The notes beneath the pieces are model-generated. The model saw nothing but the letters and a program-made list of their open reading frames with translations. It did no database searches and had not been told where the DNA came from. Positions 1 to 12,374 of a stretch of 12,500 nt of DNA are shown here, one piece after another (within the stretch, counting starts at the first letter, position 1; each line of letters starts with the position of its first letter). Source of the DNA: Acropora yongei (taxonomy: Eukaryota > Cnidaria > Anthozoa > Scleractinia > Acroporidae); the NCBI GenBank assembly GCA_014634225.1, contig BLFN01000485.1, forward strand, positions 1,983,371-1,995,870. The letters are read 5' to 3'. A program made the translations under genes and the position numbers.

Positions 1-109
1 GCGCATTTGCTATGTGGATATATTCAAATGCGCTTTACAACAGTTTGTGGGGGACTTTGCCCGACTGCTTTATGACGCAGTTCACAATCTTTTTTATGTA
101 ACAAGTAGA

Positions 110-143
<34 letters not shown>

Positions 144-238
144 ACAGACCACAACACCGGGAACTTCATGCTCTACTCTTTACGAATAGTGTGTGAGTTC
201 TTTAACGTCCCACAGTTATTTAAGGGTTGTGAGACGGA

Positions 239-278
<40 letters not shown>

Positions 279-279
279 G

Positions 280-323
<44 letters not shown>

Positions 324-408
324 ATTATTTTAAGACCCAGAGCCGGAGTCGAACTCACAACCTCCCGCGTCATAGACCAATGCTCAACAACAGAGCTACC
401 GGGTCGCA
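1..408 (-). mobile_element. tRNA-derived SINE, 3' end cut by window edge
   Basis: Read on the minus strand, this element starts near 408 with a tRNA-like head (about 407-333) that has recognisable pol III A and B boxes and a GACCC/GGGTC pair at its ends. A tRNA-unrelated body follows, with the stretch GGGACGTTAAAGAACTCACA (rc of about 196-215), which I remember from invertebrate SINEs. The low-coordinate end carries a hairpin: GCGCATTTG at 1-9 pairs with CAAATGCGC at 25-33, like the short tail hairpins of such SINEs. The tail itself lies outside the window. The head folds poorly in the T-arm and anticodon stem, so this is not a functional tRNA. The open frame at 14-196 on the plus strand is a chance frame inside the SINE. 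Family name not assigned. Confidence 0.7.
345..398 (-). promoter_or_regulatory. RNA polymerase III internal promoter (A and B boxes) of the SINE
   Basis: On the minus strand, TAGCTCTGTTGTTGAG (398-383) fits the A box and AGTTCGACTCC (355-345) fits the B box, with spacing typical of a tRNA gene. These are what place the SINE head and orientation. Whether the boxes still drive transcription is unknown. Confidence 0.6.
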
Positions 409-874
409 GTAATCAGTGGTTAAAGCAACATTGTGAAATTAGTTATGTACAACATGTATAAACTTTGAAAACCAAAAGATTGAATCTAGGCCTTAGACTC
501 TAAAATGAGTTAACATTAAATAGAATGAAAATTAAAAGTTTGTTACAGTATGTTGTGTTTGAGATTGTATGAGACTATCATGAGCAAGCTGTCTTTTTCT
601 GTGTCGAAGTCAGAATTTTCCTGACAGAAAAGATCTTGGACAGTTCTTTAGTTGGAGAACACATCAGTTGGCTCCATGGGGGTTTGGACTATGTGTAGGT
701 GGTTAACGTGATATGGTGCAGGCATTTACAAAATAATTTAGAAAATTGGTTATGTAAACGTATTATTATTACCATACACTGAACAAGACATTTTGAAATG
801 TACACAGCCAACTTCAAAAACATAGTTGGAATTTTACCTTCTACCCAAATACATATTAAGTGGAAAATTGTTCT
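409..874. other. No gene seen between SINE and integrase pseudogene
   Basis: AT-rich sequence with stops in all frames and no repeat that I recognise. It lies downstream of the last exon of the minus-strand integrase gene, so it may include that gene's old 3' untranslated region. I see no clear AATAAA in the expected orientation close to the stop codon. Confidence 0.5.
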
Positions 875-1041
875 TCAAGTACAAAAATGCATCCATGCAG
901 TGTTTAGGCTCAACCTCACAGGGGATGGTATAAGGTCCTCACAAGCTTTCCAGAAGTCTGGATGAAGAAAATCTGATGGAGTTTGTAGTGCCCCTGAATG
1001 GGAAGCAACTTCCTTTAGCTGGTCTTCTGTCACAGGCCATC
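875..1041 (-). pseudogene. Integrase pseudogene exon 4: C-terminus
   Basis: The exon follows the acceptor CTCTCTTTCAG (ends at 1042). Its first two bases complete the Gly codon begun in exon 3, and 54 further codons run open to TGA at 877-875. The peptide W-P-V-T-E-D-Q-L-K-E-V-A, then D-F-L-H-P-D-F-W-K-A-C-E, resembles the conserved tail of this integrase family as I remember it. It is intact within itself. The last dozen residues, after P-S-P-V-R, are not recognisably conserved. Confidence 0.82.
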
Positions 1042-1547
1042 CTGAAAGAGAGCATGTCGGTTGAAATCCTTTTACAATAAATTATTGGGTTTTTATTTGC
1101 TAACTACTCAGTTTCAGGTGCATTATCAATTTTATTAGTGTTCCACTGTTATGGCTTTCCGCATCCTTGACAAATAGTGCAAACTGTCCAGCAAATGTTA
1201 TTATTTACATAAAAAAGTTTCCGGAAAGGATAGAAGTGATGATCTAGATTGAAAACCATTGACACTTTAGAGCTAGACTTTATGAACTCAGCATTGTATG
1301 ATGCAATGTGACTCAAAAATTAATGATAAGGAATTGGTTTCCTTCATGACTTTGCTTTTGTAGGGTACACAATAACAAATCACTACTATTAAAGGTAATT
1401 CATTATAAATTTATATGATATAGGGTGAATCAGAGTTGTGAAATGTCAAAGTTTTTCAAGTTTCATTGCATGTGACAGAACTACTACTGAGCATCAACAA
1501 TTTTATTGCCTGATTGAAGCAAACTGATTAGCTATAGGATTCTTTAC
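1042..1547 (-). other. Intron 3 of integrase pseudogene (506 bp)
   Basis: GTAAAG at the 5' end and CTCTCTTTCAG at the 3' end on the minus strand; it splits a Gly codon after its first base. No other feature is seen inside. Confidence 0.75.
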
Positions 1548-1717
1548 CACACTCTTCCAACCCATATTCTTGTGGAAAGTTATAAATATGATCCGGCACT
1601 CCATCAGGAAGAGAAGTATTTTCCTGTCTTCTGATTCTGTGAGTGTTCCAGATGGTTTCTCGAAACGAGTCTAGCTGTTTTTATATCACCGGAATTAAAA
1701 TGAAAGCCAACAGCATC
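1548..1717 (-). pseudogene. Integrase pseudogene exon 3: post-catalytic W-N-x-H-R region
   Basis: The exon starts after the acceptor TTTTCCCTCAG (ends at 1718) and its first base completes the Arg codon begun in exon 2. It reads M-L-L-A-F-I-L-I-P-V-I, a TAA stop (1683-1681) where the family usually has Gln, then K-Q-L-D-S-F-R-E-T-I-W-N-T-H-R-I-R and L-P-D-G-V-P-D-H-I-Y. It ends E-E-C plus one base at the donor TGTG|GTAAAG (1548/1547). The 170 bp give 56 codons plus one base on each side, exactly as the flanking phases require. A single C-to-T change of CAA to TAA accounts for the stop. Confidence 0.85.
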
Positions 1718-2141
1718 CTGAGGGAAAATGAAAAATAAGAAGGTAAAGGTTATGTACTACCATAACTAGAACTTACATTTGGATATGAAAAGATTACGCC
1801 CAGGCCTTGTTTTGTACTGTTATCAACAACCTGACTTAATCTAAAACACTTTAGGAAACCGAGTTTGTATTTCTCACATTTTTTTAAGATTACAAAGTGA
1901 CACTAACAGACACTTTTGTGATGGGCTTTGATAATATTTTGGCCAAAAGTATGGTTAAACCACTTGTAGATCCATCTGAATCTTTTCTTAAGCTACCGGT
2001 CCCCAAGGAAGATGTCCTGTGTAATCTTATTCTCAGAGGATGCACCATAAGCAATACTCCTAACTATTTTTTTTGCAAAATATGCATTTTTTTCCACATG
2101 GGTAACGCATGTCATCCAACAAAGACAAATTAGATGATTAC
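1718..2141 (-). other. Intron 2 of integrase pseudogene (424 bp)
   Basis: GTAATC at the 5' end and a pyrimidine-rich CCCTCAG at the 3' end on the minus strand; it splits an Arg codon between bases 2 and 3. The plus-strand open frame at 1897-2133 falls inside it and has no recognisable product. Confidence 0.75.
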
Positions 2142-2255
2142 CTATGGGTCCCATTGTCTGCGTCATATAGGCCTTTGTCTTTCAGCATACAGAGCTGCAC
2201 TTGAAAATATCTTTCTAATCTCTCGTGTAACTCCCTCCGCCAACGCTTAATGTTA
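2142..2255 (-). pseudogene. Integrase pseudogene exon 2: third catalytic region
   Basis: In frame from 2254 this encodes N-I-K-R-W-R-R-E-L-H-E-R-L-E-R-Y-F and then L-K-D-K-G-L-Y-D-A-D-N-G-T-H. The family normally has I-E-R-W-W-R-E-L-H here, with the Glu as third catalytic residue. In this copy Glu is Lys (AAG, 2248-2246) and the second Trp is Arg (CGG, 2239-2237). The donor CATAG|GTAATC at 2142/2141 is good and leaves two bases of a codon, which exon 3 completes. The acceptor ACAG at 2259-2256 leaves one extra T before the frame. The exon is too short to show as a long ORF. Confidence 0.85.
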
Positions 2256-2422
2256 CTGTCAATTAATTAGACACTGCAATAAGTACAGAACGCTAACAGT
2301 TGTCTTTACATTTATATTACACCACTTCTTGACTTCTTGATATATACTACACACGCACATTATAGGCACACACATGTATCGTTATCCCAAACCAAAAATT
2401 TGTTATAATTCATACTATCTAC
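2256..2422 (-). other. Intron 1 of integrase pseudogene (167 bp)
   Basis: It begins GTAGAT and ends TTGACAG on the minus strand and separates Y-G-P-S-T-A-N from the third catalytic region. Unlike the other two introns, using these ends leaves the frame off by one base, so either the acceptor has been altered, a base was gained, or this is an insertion that only looks like an intron. An inner candidate acceptor TTATTGCAG lies about 18 bases earlier but adds a stop. Confidence 0.6.
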
Positions 2423-3099
2423 CGGATTTGCTGTTGATGGTCCATACACAACTGTATCAGTTGGTTCTATGTCGCCATGGTTTTGTCTTAGAAATACCTG
2501 CATGGTGGCCATTATGCCAGTTTCACTGCCCCTGTCTACTCTTATGATTGAAGATCCCTATATTCGTAAAGGTACTCCAAATACAACCGACCGATAAGCT
2601 TTGGATCACAGTTGGTCACAAACACTCTTAACCATACCAATTTACTTCTTGAGGTATCAACGCTGCCATATACTGCAAGCGGGGATGTCCTGTTCTGATA
2701 TCCAATTAATTTGTCATGACCGTCCATGGAATGGACCCAATTAACTCCTTTTGTCGTAAACTGCTTCTTAACTTTCTTATTCCTCTTGGTGGGACATCTT
2801 GCCGCCAGACCATCAGGGTCGAGATCAAACATAACATCGTGCACTAAATCTCTTGGTACATTGAGTTTGTACTCTTGTCTCAACCAATTTTGCATTGCTC
2901 TATACCCAAGAAGACACCCAGAACCGTCAAGTTCATTCTTCACTGCTTCCTTTACTTCTTCAACCGAAATTCTTGTGTCAGGGAAGTGTATATCAAACTC
3001 TCGAAGTCTTCTATCAAGAGAACGAAGACTCCACGCATACTGTGGAAAGTCTCGTACGAGAAAGTTTAATATATTTTTTTTTATTATTTTTAACATCAA
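2423..3099 (-). pseudogene. Integrase pseudogene exon 1: N-terminus plus first two catalytic Asp
   Basis: The frame is open for 185 codons from an ATG at 3099 to TAA at 2542-2544. Residues 11-38 (FP-Q-Y-A-W-S-L-R-S-L-D-R-R-L) resemble the family's N-terminal helical region, and residues 118-165 form the first strand block of the integrase fold with D126. Below about 2566 the homologous reading moves to another frame, giving R-V-D-R-G-S-E-T-G, F-L-R-Q-N-H-G-D and Y-G-P-S-T-A-N, and runs to the donor CCG|GTAGAT at 2423/2422. A shift of one base explains the change. The first residues (MMLKIIKKN) come from AT-rich sequence and may not be real; CTTTCCACAG ending at 3040 is a usable acceptor that would start the exon at 3039 in the same frame. 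Confidence 0.85.
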
Positions 3100-3180
3100 T
3101 CAATTCTTTGTTTTGATTGCACTTTGTTTTTAAAGTTGTTTCGCTTTCTAAATCGGTTTTTGTTGCACTTGTAACTGCTT

Positions 3181-3340
3181 AGTAATTTAACTTCGATTTT
3201 ACTTTAATTATCCAATTTGATTTCTTTTTTATTTAGTTTTGCTTTTACATAAGATGTCTAAGTACTTTAATTTTGATTTTACCTTGATTATTCAGTTTAA
3301 TTTCTGATTGAGTTGGTTTTAATTTTATATCAGATATTTT
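3181..3340. repeat. Two-copy 80-bp direct tandem duplication, T-rich
   Basis: 3181-3260 and 3261-3340 align without gaps at about 60 of 80 positions by my count. Both share blocks such as GATTTTAC and AGAT at the same offset. The pair lies just 5' of the integrase pseudogene, in a T-rich stretch of the plus strand. Function unknown; it may be a degenerate minisatellite. Confidence 0.6.
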
Positions 3341-4050
3341 TTTCGGAAAATCTTTACAAAACAACGTAAAATATGAATGGCAAACATCGGCCACCATACT
3401 CTAGAACCTGCGTAAGTTCCGAAATAAGCGCCTTACAGTAGGTATTATGTCAAACTTAGGTAATGACTGTGTTTCATTTAAAGCCTACAGGAGTTCTAGA
3501 AATTGTCAACAAGTAAGCCTTACGCAAGTAAGTGCAAGTCAGTTCCACGTAAATTTGAGGGTCCAACATAGGTTTGGTGAGATGCGGAATAAAGCTTAAA
3601 ATCGAGGCGGGTTGTGGGATGATAGAAATCTTTAAGGCAGGATGCGGGGTTTAAAACACCTGCGAGACCGAGATGATCTCCATTTCTAAGTCATGGAAGC
3701 CTATTGAGAGTATGTCATTTTCAGCACTGCAAAGCCACGTAAGTAGCCTATTAGGTAAAATATGGTGGTGTACTGAAACAAATGAGACTACACAAGGTGA
3801 GATCGGAAAGGGATAAAAATGCTCGTTGGTGCGAGCGAGATGTGGGTTTCAGAGAGCCTATTCAGGCCCTGACATGCATGAGTGATTTGTTATCAGCGAT
3901 CGTTTGGTGAAGAGGATTGATGTATCATTAGTAAAGCTGAGTATCGAATGAGAGTGCTTTTCTTTTCTTATTCTTTGAGTTCCAATCATTTTATTTTCAA
4001 ATAAAATTGGACAAAGTTGTGGGTTTACAGATCTACACAATTTTTTTCTC
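3341..4050. other. No gene seen; unassigned sequence
   Basis: No convincing frame or RNA gene. Around 3575-3660 there are loosely repeated GATGCGG words in a G-rich stretch that could be an old dispersed repeat. The minus-strand frame at 3858-4073 shows no recognisable product and runs into repeat copy A, so I do not call it a gene. Confidence 0.4.
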
Positions 4051-4457
4051 CCACACATAAAATCAAGACGCAAGATAATTATTTATTTAACTCATCTCAA
4101 CTTGACATCTTTTATTTGCTTCGGTTGTTACTCACATGAATTAAAAGTTTACTGGTTTTATTGTTAGAACATTTTATAAAGATTAGTTCAGTGGATGTTT
4201 CCTGTGCCTTCATCCCATATCTTAGCGAGTTGAAAGTGGGCAGCCCATCCTTTCCGCCAAATCACACAATTGCCTCTTCGTAACAGCAAATTCTCGCAGA
4301 TCCCTTTCCCACCTCTTCATTCCCCTTTTCTGTCAAAAAGACGGAGAAATAGAAAAACGGTAATCACCTGATATACCTATGAATTACTGAAAAAGAAATA
4401 AATATCGAATTACCAGAAGTAAATATCGAATTACCCTTATGTGTCCTTAGGCAGCCA

Positions 4458-4735
4458 TGAGCTGAAGTCTCCCCAGCCCCACACCCCGCCCCCGCTTCTG
4501 CCGGCCGTGTTTTCGATCGGTAAATGAACATGAGGTTTAAAATGAAATACACCGGTACGTTCTTTTCTCGTGCCAGTTATATCTTATCTTTAATGAAATA
4601 ACACGAACACAAATGTAGTCTTATTAATGAGTTAGATACTAATGCAAAAGTTTTGTCCTCTTCAACAGCATTGACCCCCCCTCCCCCCTTAATGTCGATC
4701 AACTAAATTGCTTCTCAGATAAACGGGACAAGAAA
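4458..4735. other. Segment present only in repeat copy A
   Basis: Between the shared anchors around 4440 and 4750, copy A has about 280 bp that copy B replaces with about 30 bp. It begins with a C-rich part and ends with a C-rich run (about 4674-4688). It could be an insertion in A or a deletion in B. No end repeats were found. Confidence 0.45.
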
Positions 4736-5083
4736 CGTTTCATGTTTTATGAGAATCAAGGATTTAAAGCCACTCCCCGTATTAAGAAATGGCCTCTTGT
4801 TGCGGATCAAATTCCTGTTGTTTGAATCTACGGCGAGCTTATTTCCTCGGAAGCTAGTGAAGTCGATCATCCGCAAATTGTCGGTGAATGAGAGAAGATG
4901 TTTCAGGGGAGAGGTGAGCCTCAAATTGCGCTTCATCGTGTTGTAAACAAGATGAGTACCAAGAAAAGGACCTCTGCATTTTTTCTAGAATTATCAGGTT
5001 GATTTCGCGTCTGCAATTGCTTGCCAACGGGTAATAGTCTGGGCGCATGCGTGTAAAAGGGCCCGAATGCGTGCACGGAAGTT

Positions 5084-5325
5084 AAAAGAAAAAAAAGGGA
5101 ACTTTATTTAAGTTTCAAATCTAACTAGCGTTCGTGGTACGCTAATTGGGGACACTGTGAATTGAAATTAACACGAATCAAATGTAATCAGAAATTATGT
5201 AGGTTTGTGACGAGAGGGGAAAACCGGAGTACGCGGGGAAAAACTTCTCAGAGCAGAGTAAAGAACCAACAAACTCGATGTGAGGCGAGTGCTCTCGCCA
5301 CTACGCAACCACTGGTCTCCTGCAG
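5084..5325 (-). mobile_element. Second tRNA-derived SINE, inserted in copy A, B box missing
   Basis: On the minus strand from about 5325 it begins with a tRNA-like head, GCGTAGTGGCGAGAGCACTC (rc of 5287-5306), a usable A box. The body includes TTGGTTCTTTACTCTGC and TTTTCCCCGCGTACTCCGG, which I recall from an abundant coral SINE. It ends in an AAATAAAG-type tail followed by a C/T run. In fuller copies of this family a B box should lie between the A box and the body; here the head passes straight into the body, so an internal deletion is likely. Copy B lacks the whole segment, so it probably inserted after the A/B duplication. Target-site duplication is not clear. The plus-strand frame at 5162-5374 is chance. 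Confidence 0.65.
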
Positions 5326-5789
5326 AAAAACTCCTATTCAGCGATTAGGAAATTTAAAAAGACAAACGACCTAGGCCTCTTTGTTTATTTACGATGAGTT
5401 GTCCCGGAGAAAGATTAAAGACAACAGTGTGGACCTCCACAAAATGACACATTTTGCGATACATACCTTAAACCCACTTGTCGTAGCTATGGGATTCCAA
5501 GTGCTCAGCGATTCATTGAATAACATCGCCAGGCAAACCAGACCTAAAAGAAGGGAAAATCTAGAATTCATTGCTTGTGCTGAAGGTTAGTGGTTCGTTC
5601 TTCACAGTAACAGAGTGGACTTTTTAGTTTGAATCTTCTTTAAGTGAGCGCTCCTGACTGATTGAGGTAGCTCTTTACTACTTATGACTTACTTCTGCCT
5701 GTATTGACGCTATTCATATATAGGTATAATATACCGTGATGCCAAACTACGACACGTGGCATGCAAATAGTATTGCAAATGCCCTGTTA

Positions 5790-6030
5790 AAAACCTTGAA
5801 ATGATGAAATTAGCAAAGATAACGTTGCTATTCAGTTAAGTTGAAAGAGACTAGTTAAGAAGCAGGAGATTAGGAGTCAGTCAAATAATCGAAATTGTTT
5901 AGCACAGCTGTTACTTAATGTTTTCTTCCGCTGGTAAACAAAGTTGTTAAGGTGTGAGACCACAAACTCTGTCCAGAAATGAATGATACGTCACTATATT
6001 TCGAATTTTCTCCATCATTACCACAGCTGG
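5790..6030. other. Segment present only in repeat copy A
   Basis: Copy A has about 240 bp between the shared octamer-containing block (5748-5771) and the shared block that begins near GGCGAGTGAAGGGTAAATAA; copy B has about 20 bp there. No recognisable element was found inside. Confidence 0.45.
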
Positions 6031-6671
6031 ACACTGTAGGCGAGTGAAGGGTAAATAACGTTGAATTTAGATTACTGCTTAGATTCCCCTTTTTACAATA
6101 AAATTACAATCCCTGAAGTCAAAATTCAACAAAAGAAGTCCTATATCTGCAGGGTATGTAAAAAGAAGCTATTTAATAAGCTCCATAGACTAAAGACGCC
6201 CCTCAATTTATGGTCGTTAACCATTGACCGCATTAATTAACCATGATAGCAAACACTCACAAAGCGTCCTAACTATACTAATATTCAATTCAATATCACC
6301 TGTCTGCAACTTTTTCAATTGAAAATCTATCTATAGATATGAAACCTTTGTCGGCTCATGAGTTTTGTGAATCCCAAGATATTTTGGATTTATAATCCGT
6401 TTATGGATTCTCTATCCAAAAGGCAAAATTCGTATTTGGATTCGAGAATCCGTTTTCGAATTTTTCTCCCGAAAAGAACACGTCCTATACAGCTATCTTT
6501 TGATGCAGGAATAAATACTACTTCAGTGTTGTGTATTTAATGGTAGCGTTACTTTGTTTGTAATGTTTATATCGTTTCTACAGTTATATCGTGTGGGAGA
6601 TGCATGTACGAGGTGATCAAAATTACATTTGGAACTTTTAATCTGTGTTTACAGTAACGTTTTCTTGGACT

Positions 6672-7974: not shown

Positions 7975-8300
7975 AAAGTCGGTCTTTCAACCATCGACCA
8001 AATGTGCACCAACCATCGATCGAACGAGTGTCGACCAATTACTGACCGATACATCGGTCAAGTATCGACCAATTGTAAGTGTCTGCAAAGTGTCGGCGAA
8101 ATGTTGGTAAAGTATAGGTGAACTGAAAAGCTGCATCGACCGACATACATCTCGACTTACTATATACCGAGTGTCGACCGAGTGTCGATCAAGTGTCGAC
8201 CGATCGCGCGAGTGTCGATGGAGTGTCGACCGAGTGTCGACCGGCTAGGTCGACCGATATAGCGGTCGCCATAGGGGTCGACAAAATAGTCGACACTACC
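7975..8300. repeat. Degenerate GTCGAC-rich minisatellite field
   Basis: The clear core at 8168-8254 is built from 11-bp units close to CGAGTGTCGAC: 8168-8178, 8179-8189, 8190-8200, 8209-8219, 8220-8230 and 8231-8241, with an 8-bp interruption at 8201-8208. Around it, from 7975 to 8300, scattered ATCGACC, GTCGACC and CGGTC words look like worn units in both orientations. CpG density is high compared with the surroundings. Confidence 0.8.
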
Positions 8301-9425: not shown

Positions 9426-9640
9426 TAGACATTGCATAATACAGCCTCCCCCGATAATCCTATTGTTGAGGCCGTGTGTATTTTTGCGCAACTTTGATAT
9501 TCCTCTCGGGCACGCATGAAATCAAGACACAAGATCAATATATATTGAACTCATTTCAAGTTGACATGTTTTATTTGCCTAGGCTGTCATATGGATTCAA
9601 AGTTTTCTGGTTTTATTCTTAGAACATTTCATAAAGATTA

Positions 9641-9698
9641 GAACCTTCACTCTCACGACAAATATTGCTTAAAATACTCAAAATATGCTAAAAAGGAA
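9641..9698. repeat. Left terminal inverted repeat
   Basis: 58 bp; its reverse complement matches 10597-10654 with three substitutions and no gap. Confidence 0.92.
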
Positions 9699-9879
9699 GT
9701 ATTTAGCTTAAAAAAGTATTCTATACTACGAAATAATTTTTTTCTGAGGGTCCAAAATAGGTCTTCGTAGTAAATTCAAATCTCCCGCTATCCGCCATCT
9801 TGACTAGTCGCGCAGAGCAGTCTGGGCTTGTGACGTAGCTTGGTTGCTTTACTCCTCGAGTATCCGTAAAAGAGCAAAA

Positions 9880-10222
9880 ATGTCGCACTGTGTCGCTTTT
9901 GAGTGCAACGTCCAGGTCAAGAGGAAACAAAACGATCCAAAAATGCGATTCCATACGTTCCCAAAAGATAAAAAATTTCGTCAGGCGTGGATCCATACTA
10001 ATGGGAGGACATCTTACCCGAAAAATGCGCGTTTGTGCTCGAAATATTTCGAAGAGCATTGGTTCGAGGCGTCGTATCTCATGGAAGTGCGAATACTTGA
10101 ATCAAGCTCGGATGCTAAATCCTCTCAAGACAGATGCCGACGTCCCCACAAGATTTTCTCACCGGAAAGCAACTCCCGTACGCTTTTTTTGCCAAACGAG
10201 CAGAGAAGTGACAGCTTCTGGA

Positions 10223-10253
<31 letters not shown>

Positions 10254-10538
10254 TGTTATAATACAACATGTTATGAATGTTGCTTTCTGGCCCAATCCTT
10301 GAGTTGTGATGCTTGGTTAATTACGAATCCTACTTCCCTTATGTTTTTAGAGTGTTTCTGGCCTTTTTAATGACAATCCTGGTATCTCAGCTTTTCAGGA
10401 AAGAACGCATGAAGAATTAGCAAAGGAGGAAGATGACGAGTCGCTAGAAATGTTGTGACCGTTTCCCCGACCCATTGTGATGTTGGAGTTCAAACAGAGT
10501 GTTCCCTTGTAACAATGGTGGATAGTTCAACACTGTGA
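9880..10538 (+). pseudogene. THAP zinc-finger ORF of the transposon, decayed, two exons
   Basis: From ATG at 9880 the frame reads M-S-H-C-V-A-F-E-C (C4-x4-C9), F-H-T-F-P (24-28), W37 and L-C-S-K-Y-F (52-57), the order of the C2CH THAP domain that binds DNA through one zinc. The zinc-ligand His is Tyr56 here (TAT, 10045-10047). The AVPTxF-like end of the domain appears as D-V-P-T-R-F at 10139-10156 in the +1 frame, so a frameshift lies between about 10080 and 10135. A (TG)n tract begins at 10227, probably in an intron that ends at CTTTTCAG (10398). The exon after it gives E-R-T-H-E-E-L-A-K-E-E-D-D-E, then in another frame D-V-G-V-Q-T-E before TGA at 10536-10538. No catalytic domain follows. 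The related minus-strand frame at 9721-10059 is a shadow. Confidence 0.8.
10227..10252. repeat. (TG)13 microsatellite
   Basis: Thirteen perfect TG units at the start of the putative intron of the THAP ORF. Confidence 0.97.
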
Positions 10539-10596
10539 AATGCCCACAACCAGGAATGCTCCGTGTCAATTTCCACACGATTTTTGTGAGGCTGTT

Positions 10597-10654
10597 TTCC
10601 TTTTTAGCATATTTTGAGCATTTTAAGCAATATTTGTTGTGAGAGTGGAGGTTC
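10597..10654. repeat. Right terminal inverted repeat
   Basis: 58 bp; inverted partner of 9641-9698. A piece resembling its outer 13 bp is also found at 4190-4202 in repeat copy A. Confidence 0.92.
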
Positions 10655-11515
10655 CTTCTTATGCCTCCATTGAATATCTCCGTGAGTTAAAGGGGGCAGT
10701 CCATCCTTTCCGCCAAATTAATCACACAATCGCCTCTTCGTAGCGGCAAATTTACGGAGATCTCTTCCTCACCTCCTCATTACACCTTCTTGCAGTCAAG
10801 AAGACGGAGAAATAGAACGACGATAATCGCCTAATGTACATGAATTGGTGAAATAGAAATAAAGCGAATTAGCCTTGCGAATCCTTGGCTAGCTATGGTA
10901 ATAAACTGCTATGTGAAGCTAGGGTTTAAAGCCACTAACCTCATTAAGAAATGGCTGCATGTTCCTGTCCGAATTCCTTATCATCCCTATGTAGAATACC
11001 CGGTTGTTTGGATCTGCGAAGTCGATTCATCCGCAAATTGTCCCCTGTTTCAGGGGAGAGGTGAGCGTGAAATTGCTTGTCAGCGAGTTGTAAACAAGAT
11101 GGGTGCCAAGAGAAGGACCTCTGCATCTTTTCTGGCATGTTCAGGCTGATTTCACCTCTGGAATTACTTGCCAAGGGGTAATAGGCGGAGGGCATGCGCG
11201 TAGTATAGGCCCTGTATGTGTGCATGGAAGTTCCTCGAGAATAACTTGTACTCAGCTATTAGGAAAATGGAAACTGAAACCACCAAGGCCTTTTATTTGT
11301 TTATTTATAAGTCGCCCCGGAGCAAGGTTAAAGACGAATATATGGATCTCAGGAAAATGGCACATTTTGCGATACATACCTTAACAACCTTTTCACCCGG
11401 AGGTTGGGAAGTGTTTGCAAAGCACAGGGATTCCCTGAATAACATCCAATTGAAGTAGCTCTTTGCTTTACGACGAACTCCTGTATTGACACTACTCGTA
11501 TATAAAGGACATTTA

Positions 11516-11735
11516 TTCCCACAAAGAATAAATGAATTTATACGGCTCGCTACGTGAGTAATGTTTGATTCTAGATTATGTAAATCAGTTGACTTGTTAC
11601 TGAGAAAACATACGGCCACGATTGTTGCTAATATATGGCACAACTATTGATCTCAGTTTCATCACTTGGCTCCAGCAAACAGAGCTCAGCCTTGGTTATG
11701 CGCCCCGTTGAGTCTAAGGTAACGAGCGAGAAGCA
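11516..11735. other. Segment present only in repeat copy B
   Basis: Copy A passes from the CTGTATTGAC block to the CGACAC-TGGCATGCAAAT block in about 55 bp; copy B has roughly 220 bp more. No recognisable element; the minus-strand frame at 11305-11643 spans the junction and is not supported as a gene. Confidence 0.45.
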
Positions 11736-12374
11736 TAAATATAATATATATTGATGCAAATTACGACACTTGGCATGCAAATAGTGTTTAAAACTGCACT
11801 GCGTAGGTGAGTGAAAGGTAAATAAATGGGAGCTCCCTCGTCTTACGTTGGATTCGGACTAAAACCCAGATTCCTCAAATATAATTGCAGTCCCTGAAGT
11901 AAAAGTTCTACGAGATCAGCCTTATATCTTCGGGGTATATAGAAGCTATTTAATGATTTCCATAGAGTAGTGACGATCCGCAGTTAATAGTCGGTAATCA
12001 TTGATCTCATTAACGATCACTGCTGTGCTTATCATGCTCAATGCAGTAGCACCTGTCTTCAATTTTTTCAATTGAAAATCTACCTACAGATATGAAACAT
12101 TTGTCGGCACATAATATTTTCGTGAGCCCCTATAGCTAGATATTTTGGATTTATTATTTGTTTTTGGATTGTCTCAAAAAAGGCAAAATCCGTATTTGGA
12201 TTTGAGAATCCGTTGTCAAACTTTTCACCCGGAAAACGCTTCCTATACAGCTATCTTTTGATGCTCGAATACAAACTGCTGGACGATTTAGAGTGTTGTG
12301 TGCATAACGGTCACCTTATATATATTGCTCATATCGTTTGTAAAATTATACCATGTGGAAAATTCATGTAAGAT

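Follow-up and report, generated by a model that had tools for sequence, protein, structure and literature searches.

The minus strand of a 12,500-nt stretch of Acropora yongei DNA, here called the window, carries at positions 3072-834 successive parts of a single rva_4 (PF24764) DDE transposase, as found by tblastn together with reading of the sequence. We conclude, with a probability of roughly 85%, that a decayed copy of an IS3EU-like DNA transposon, truncated at its 5' end, occupies this locus. Judged from their distribution among related sequences, the introns that interrupt it appear to be ancient within one clade of the transposase family.

Four exon remnants of one transposase gene lie in order on the minus strand

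The window was searched by tblastn with P0001, a family member from Dendronephthya gigantea. The pieces of P0001 were returned in order along the minus strand: residues 28-203 at 3087-2563, residues 208-253 at 2554-2417, residues 250-288 at 2257-2141, residues 288-345 at 1719-1546, residues 345-388 at 1042-911 and residues 383-404 at 935-864. The first three pieces were linked at an E-value of 4.9e-78, the second and third forming one gapped stretch there; residues 288-345 gave an E-value of 5.0e-24, and the last two pieces, linked, gave 2.5e-11. When a second relative, P0009, was compared with the window, its residues 30-208 aligned in frame -3 (3081-2545) and its residues 208-260 in frame -2 (2551-2390), running on into intron 1. 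The locus is laid out as follows, with a slash within letters marking an exon boundary.

2423..3072, minus strand: exon 1 remnant, with the HTH-like N-terminal part, the D1 codon at 2724-2722 and the D2 codon at 2536-2534.
2252..2422, minus strand: intron 1, 171 nt, with the donor CCG/GTAGATAG and a damaged 3' end.
2142..2251, minus strand: exon 2 remnant, in which QIERWWRELHERLE of the family has become NIKRWRRELHERLE, with Glu changed to Lys at codon 2248-2246.
1718..2141, minus strand: intron 2, 424 nt, GT-AG, phase 2 (AG/G), reading TAG/GTAATC...CCCTCAG/GATG.
1548..1717, minus strand: exon 3 remnant, corresponding to P0001 residues 288-345 at 67% identity, with an in-frame TAA at 1683-1681.
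1042..1547, minus strand: intron 3, 506 nt, GT-AG, phase 1 (G/GA), reading GTG/GTAAAG...TTTCAG/GATG.
834..1041, minus strand: exon 4 remnant, starting WPVTEDQLKEVASHSG..., with the tail FLYLKNNF in another frame and a stop at 836-834.

Introns 2 and 3, both GT-AG, have pyrimidine-rich 3' ends. The G+C content of the exons was 40-45% (exon 4 counted as 1041-819) compared to 32-35% in the three introns. A first-pass annotation, made from the letters of the sequence, had described four minus-strand stretches as consecutive parts of one integrase-core protein, and the ordered tblastn pieces bear this out. It had also placed introns 2 and 3 as GT-AG and in phase (2142/1717, AG/G; 1548/1041, G/GA), which is exact. 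Its extent of 875..3099 is off at the ends, since clear transposase homology begins near 3072-3087 and runs past 875 in another frame. Its first stretch, the ORF at 2542-3099, covers exon 1 incompletely, as this exon extends in a different frame as far as 2423. Intron 1, with its donor at 2422 and its damaged 3' end, had been missed.

The protein family has a predicted RNase-H-like DDE core

The read-through peptide of the window copy, with X at the breaks, matched PF24764 (rva_4, 'Integrase core domain') at an E-value of 3e-15 and 56.9 bits, against a cut-off of 26. The four single ORFs (exons 1, 3 and 4), when tested alone, were below the PF24764 cut-off. The HTH_21 match of the read-through peptide was weak and under the cut-off (E 0.0023). 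With a threshold of E<=1e-3, a protein search returned 279 homologues, the best 120 of which were listed. The best named relatives among those listed were the cnidarians Dendronephthya gigantea, Actinostola, Exaiptasia, Porites harrisoni and Clytia and the tunicate Ciona, and homologues containing all the pieces in order are present (P0001-P0003), in keeping with the first-pass reading. The closest among those listed were P0009, at 85% identity over 62% of the query, and P0062, at 88% identity over 44%. The rva_4 proteins of cnidarians, tunicates and others have the same order of parts as the window copy at up to the identity reached by P0062, but the window copy is broken and many members of the family are intronless.

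Asp150 of P0001 (D1) is D in all 120 listed proteins, and Asp214 (D2) is D in 117 of the 120. Glu253 is E in 55 of the 60 long members; the remainder have S (two members), K (one), D (one) or a gap (one). Lys at the catalytic Glu is therefore found, as the K in this count says, in one other long member besides the window copy. The structure model of P0001 had a mean pLDDT of 88.6 and a pTM of 0.66. Comparison of this model with the PDB gave 17 matches at E<=0.001, all of which were DDE transposases or integrases, including Mu, IstA, TnsB, ISCth4 and RSV integrase. The best E-value was 7.4e-5, and TM-scores over the whole chain were low, at 0.17-0.34 when normalised to the query. A sequence-profile search of the PDB returned nothing at E<=1. 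The model of P0001 suggests that the family has an RNase-H-like DDE core with D150, D214 and E253.

We take the PF24764 proteins to be the transposases named IS3EU in Repbase. An excerpt of PMC10045372 describes IS3EU as lacking an HHCC motif and as having its first D at a distance of 100-300 residues from the N-terminus, and complete IS3EU families as having TA..TA termini and usually 6-bp target duplications. The present family resembles IS3EU/GingerRoot in that D1, at residue 150 of P0001, falls inside the range of 100-300, and in that none of the 109 members whose D1 could be located showed an HHCC-like motif ahead of it. The weak HTH_21 hint in the window peptide, being of IS3 type, is a further likeness to IS3EU. 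IS3EU is the best-fitting superfamily, and the copy is accordingly called IS3EU-like.

It is very improbable that the locus is a processed fragment made by retrocopying, or that it comes from a virus or a self-synthesising, Polinton-like element instead of a cut-and-paste transposon. Related integrase-like cores do occur in Polintons and retroelements, according to the same excerpt (PMC10045372). The introns, however, rule out a processed copy, and the first-pass view of an intron-bearing element rather than a processed copy fits with their presence. A scan of viral contigs produced seven pattern matches and no confirmed relatives, and the lack of an HHCC-like motif in the 109 members argues against a retroviral-type integrase, although Polintons are also without HHCC.

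The window copy is broken in several places

About 30 residues of the family are missing at the N-terminus of the window copy. Homology to P0009 starts at residue 30, and the first 29 residues of P0009 and of P0062 had no match in the window. The frame is lost near 2545-2563 in exon 1 and near 911-935 in exon 4, and exon 3 is interrupted in frame by the TAA listed above. In intron 1, the nearest AG (2257-2256) does not abut the conserved Ile codon (2251-2249), and as this AG is out of register with that codon, intron 1 breaks the frame. The Glu that became Lys in exon 2 is the catalytic Glu of the QIERWW motif.

Substitutions were counted at positions with a conservation of 95% or more among the members. 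Outside the breaks, 5 of 68 such positions (7%) were altered in the window copy. On the same set of positions, P0009 departs at 1 of 53 and P0062 at 1 of 42, and among the listed members the departure reaches 13%. The end branch of the window copy in the tree was 0.12 changes per column compared to 0.042 for P0009. Decay by substitution thus appears modest, and the case for a pseudogene is carried by the breaks. Because the start is gone, the frame is lost twice, a TAA interrupts exon 3, in-frame splicing of intron 1 is prevented and Lys stands in place of the catalytic Glu, the window copy would be unable to make the enzyme and appears, from its sequence, to be a dead pseudogene.

The ordered exons, the good splice signals at introns 2 and 3 and the intact majority of conserved positions are what a working four-exon host gene would have. 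That the window copy is such a gene is close to impossible given the absent N-terminus and the other breaks, by which a working host gene is excluded here; an assembly error might account for one of them, but hardly for all. The first-pass annotation had presented a hidden four-exon gene and made no mention of the breaks.

Intron positions are shared within one branch of the family

Intron positions were compared across 101 ORFs classed as unspliced, namely the 120 listed sequences minus 19 that were excluded by hand because their source labels indicated spliced predictions; the unspliced status was assigned from the sources and from read-through into introns, and some of the 101 may derive from transcripts. 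The intron classes were defined by alignment positions and identity thresholds. The intron-1 site is the end of 56 of the 101 ORFs. Fifty-five of these 56 read NQ/V (as CAG/GT), and P0035 reads NQI; the CCG/GTAGATAG donor of the window copy lies at this place. Intron 2 is the end of three of the 101: P0061 and P0070 stop exactly on the split Arg codon and P0074 stops three residues later. All three intron sites are passed by 37 of the 101, and five are in no class. For 17 of the 37 intronless ORFs the longest contig was >50 kb. Since the read-through of P0009 into intron 1 (VDTIYKNFLV) resembles that of the window (VDSMNYNKFLV), the introns themselves look homologous.

Three further, diverged relics in the same genome agree with the window copy in intron positions. 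The first, L040, has an intron-1 donor CAG/GTGAGT and an intron 1 of 115 nt, with a read-through resembling P0072 and P0102. Its intron 2 (donor CAG/GTGATT, acceptor CACAG/GATGC) has the position and phase of the window's. L040 is badly broken; its intron-1 acceptor is out of register too, and its intron-3 donor is not GT. The second, L041, is an exon 3 with an intron-2 acceptor and an intron-3 donor in the same phases as in the window. The third, L042, is an exon 4 starting AAG/GA (G/GA), with the intron-3 acceptor at the same position and phase as in the window. Stretches of N adjoin L041 and L042. As the same positions and phases are found in other copies, the junctions of introns 2 and 3 in the window are not due to chance.

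Six distant relatives were also found in the same genome (L003, L004, L006, L007, L008 and L009). Their identity to P0009 is 33-36%, and some contain stops. L003, L004, L006, L007 and L008 cross the intron-1 site without an intron, and the match of L009 stops before it. The first-pass annotation had made its reading depend on family members having introns at these places; members without them exist, both as the 37 of 101 ORFs and as these five of six relatives.

The tree comprised 101 rows: the 56 intron-1 ORFs, 29 of the 37 intronless ORFs, the three intron-2 ORFs, 11 of the 19 set-aside proteins, the window and L003. The eight intronless rows left out were omitted by hand, most as apparent near-copies of P0017, of which P0018 alone was seen aligned to P0017. 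All 56 intron-1 rows and the window were in one 68-row branch, which contained none of the 29 intronless rows and had weak support (80/75). The next branch out, of 71 rows with support 95/86, includes two intronless rows. Two intron-2 ORFs within the 68-row branch run on through the intron-1 site, suggesting losses or transcript sources. For the intron-1 label, 11 changes were counted on the tree, with the named spliced proteins scored as rows without the intron whatever their own gene structure. The simplest reading is that intron 1 was gained once, long ago, with few later losses.

Copy number, element ends and other features of the window

A DNA-level search of the 405-Mb genome (365 contigs) with 820-3065 matched this region itself alone. 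A lone match is unusual for a recently active transposon and is expected of an old lone relic. No element ends were located in the window. A search for terminal inverted repeats (TIRs) between 6-820 and 3066-6000 gave two weak pairs, compared to 0-9 in 20 shuffles, with the 5' part of the copy missing. A general repeat scan gave one 12/16 pair with a 5/6 flank, and the best local alignment, at 26, was lower than the top shuffles (29-32). With no ends located, no 6-bp target duplication could be placed in the window, and none above chance was seen. TA..TA ends and 6-bp duplications such as complete IS3EU families have were not found at the window copy. As the 5' part of the window copy is gone, the missing TIRs say little about its family.

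These results could also be explained if an IS3EU-like transposase had been domesticated in an ancestor as a single-copy host gene that is now a pseudogene in the species of the window. The window copy and P0009 would then descend from one intron-bearing gene, retained in the animal that carries P0009 and lost here. The single DNA-level match and the unlocated ends agree with this, as do the complete exon 1 and short branch of the closest relative, P0009, and host genes derived from Ginger1 retain element introns, as described in part of PMC2836005. We nevertheless regard domestication as unlikely, and a shared descent of the window and P0009 from one such gene as equally doubtful. The genome contains further relics with identical intron positions at other places, and Dendronephthya gigantea has at least five distinct long members (P0001, P0002, P0003, P0005 and P0006). 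The nearest clusters hold 18 (P0009) and 11 (P0062) sequences, which fits multiple copies, or several species or assemblies.

The search of genome contigs gave one distant relative, L001, at 26% identity, on VBAU01000213.1, a contig filed as a Bacteroidetes bacterium MAG. The other ORFs of this contig look eukaryotic by eye, and it is likely to be contamination.

A repeat outside the transposase gene lies downstream of the relic.

1..402, minus strand: SINE-like repeat with a head that is tRNA-like by eye.

This repeat had 42 matches in the same genome including its own, from 40 scored of 223 candidates, and ARAGORN and Rfam called no tRNA or RNA family. Positions 4052-6611 and 9511-12373 form a diverged direct duplication in seven aligned pieces, 71-83% identical and ~5.5-6.5 kb apart. 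At 9641-10654 is an element of 1014 bp that carries inverted repeats of 58 nt (95% complementary) and whose ORF encodes a THAP domain (Pfam E 7.5e-9); the element is present in one copy of the local duplication and absent from the other. No clear target duplication was found for this element, which looks like a THAP-bearing DNA transposon. At 7988-8254, short direct repeats are clustered around CGAGTGTCGACCGAGTGTCGA, many of them at 11-base spacing.

Discussion

Transposases with introns are known from other superfamilies. Some Ginger1 transposases have 1-4 introns, three of which are common to Ginger1-5_HM and host-derived genes, as stated in part of PMC2836005. Ginger1 and Gin-1/Gin-2 resemble the present family as integrase-like DNA transposons, some of them with conserved intron positions. 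In contrast to the present family, in which no HHCC-like motif was found, Ginger1 has a zinc finger and a GPY/F motif, according to the same partial text (PMC2836005). CACTA transposases are encoded by one to six exons, the boundaries of which are conserved, and have undergone intron loss, as an excerpt of PMC4158355 reports. They share with this family multi-exon transposase genes with old conserved boundaries, but CACTA is a separate superfamily and the studies are of plants. Since Ginger1 and CACTA transposons also carry introns, introns do not mark a host gene. The first-pass suggestion of long residence as a host gene is therefore unsupported, the copy being a pseudogene and intron-bearing DNA transposons being documented. 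On the same precedents, its argument that introns speak against a plain transposon insertion fails. Our literature search, which had Repbase reports outside its scope, returned no publication joining IS3EU and coral; exon-intron gene prediction for transposases in general is mentioned in an excerpt of PMC12730594.

We propose that in intact relatives a four-exon pre-mRNA would be spliced to encode a DDE transposase of ~400 residues, consisting of a helical N-terminal part and a catalytic core of RNase-H type that carries D, D and E. Going by related transposases, this protein would bind the element ends and catalyse cutting and strand transfer. The element would move as DNA, so that, as the precedents suggest, the introns would travel along with it, and one clade of the family has retained their positions through many copies. 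We infer that the window copy arrived by transposition and that it is kin to IS3EU. It would later have been broken at its start, in its frames, in exon 3, in intron 1 and at the catalytic Glu.

Apart from its intron conservation, the window copy is ordinary. What it corrects is an inference: an integrase-like gene cannot be recognised as a host gene by its conserved intron positions. Since the intron-1 site is found in 56 of the 101 unspliced ORFs and these lie in one branch of the tree, the family could serve to trace how introns are gained and lost within a DNA transposon.
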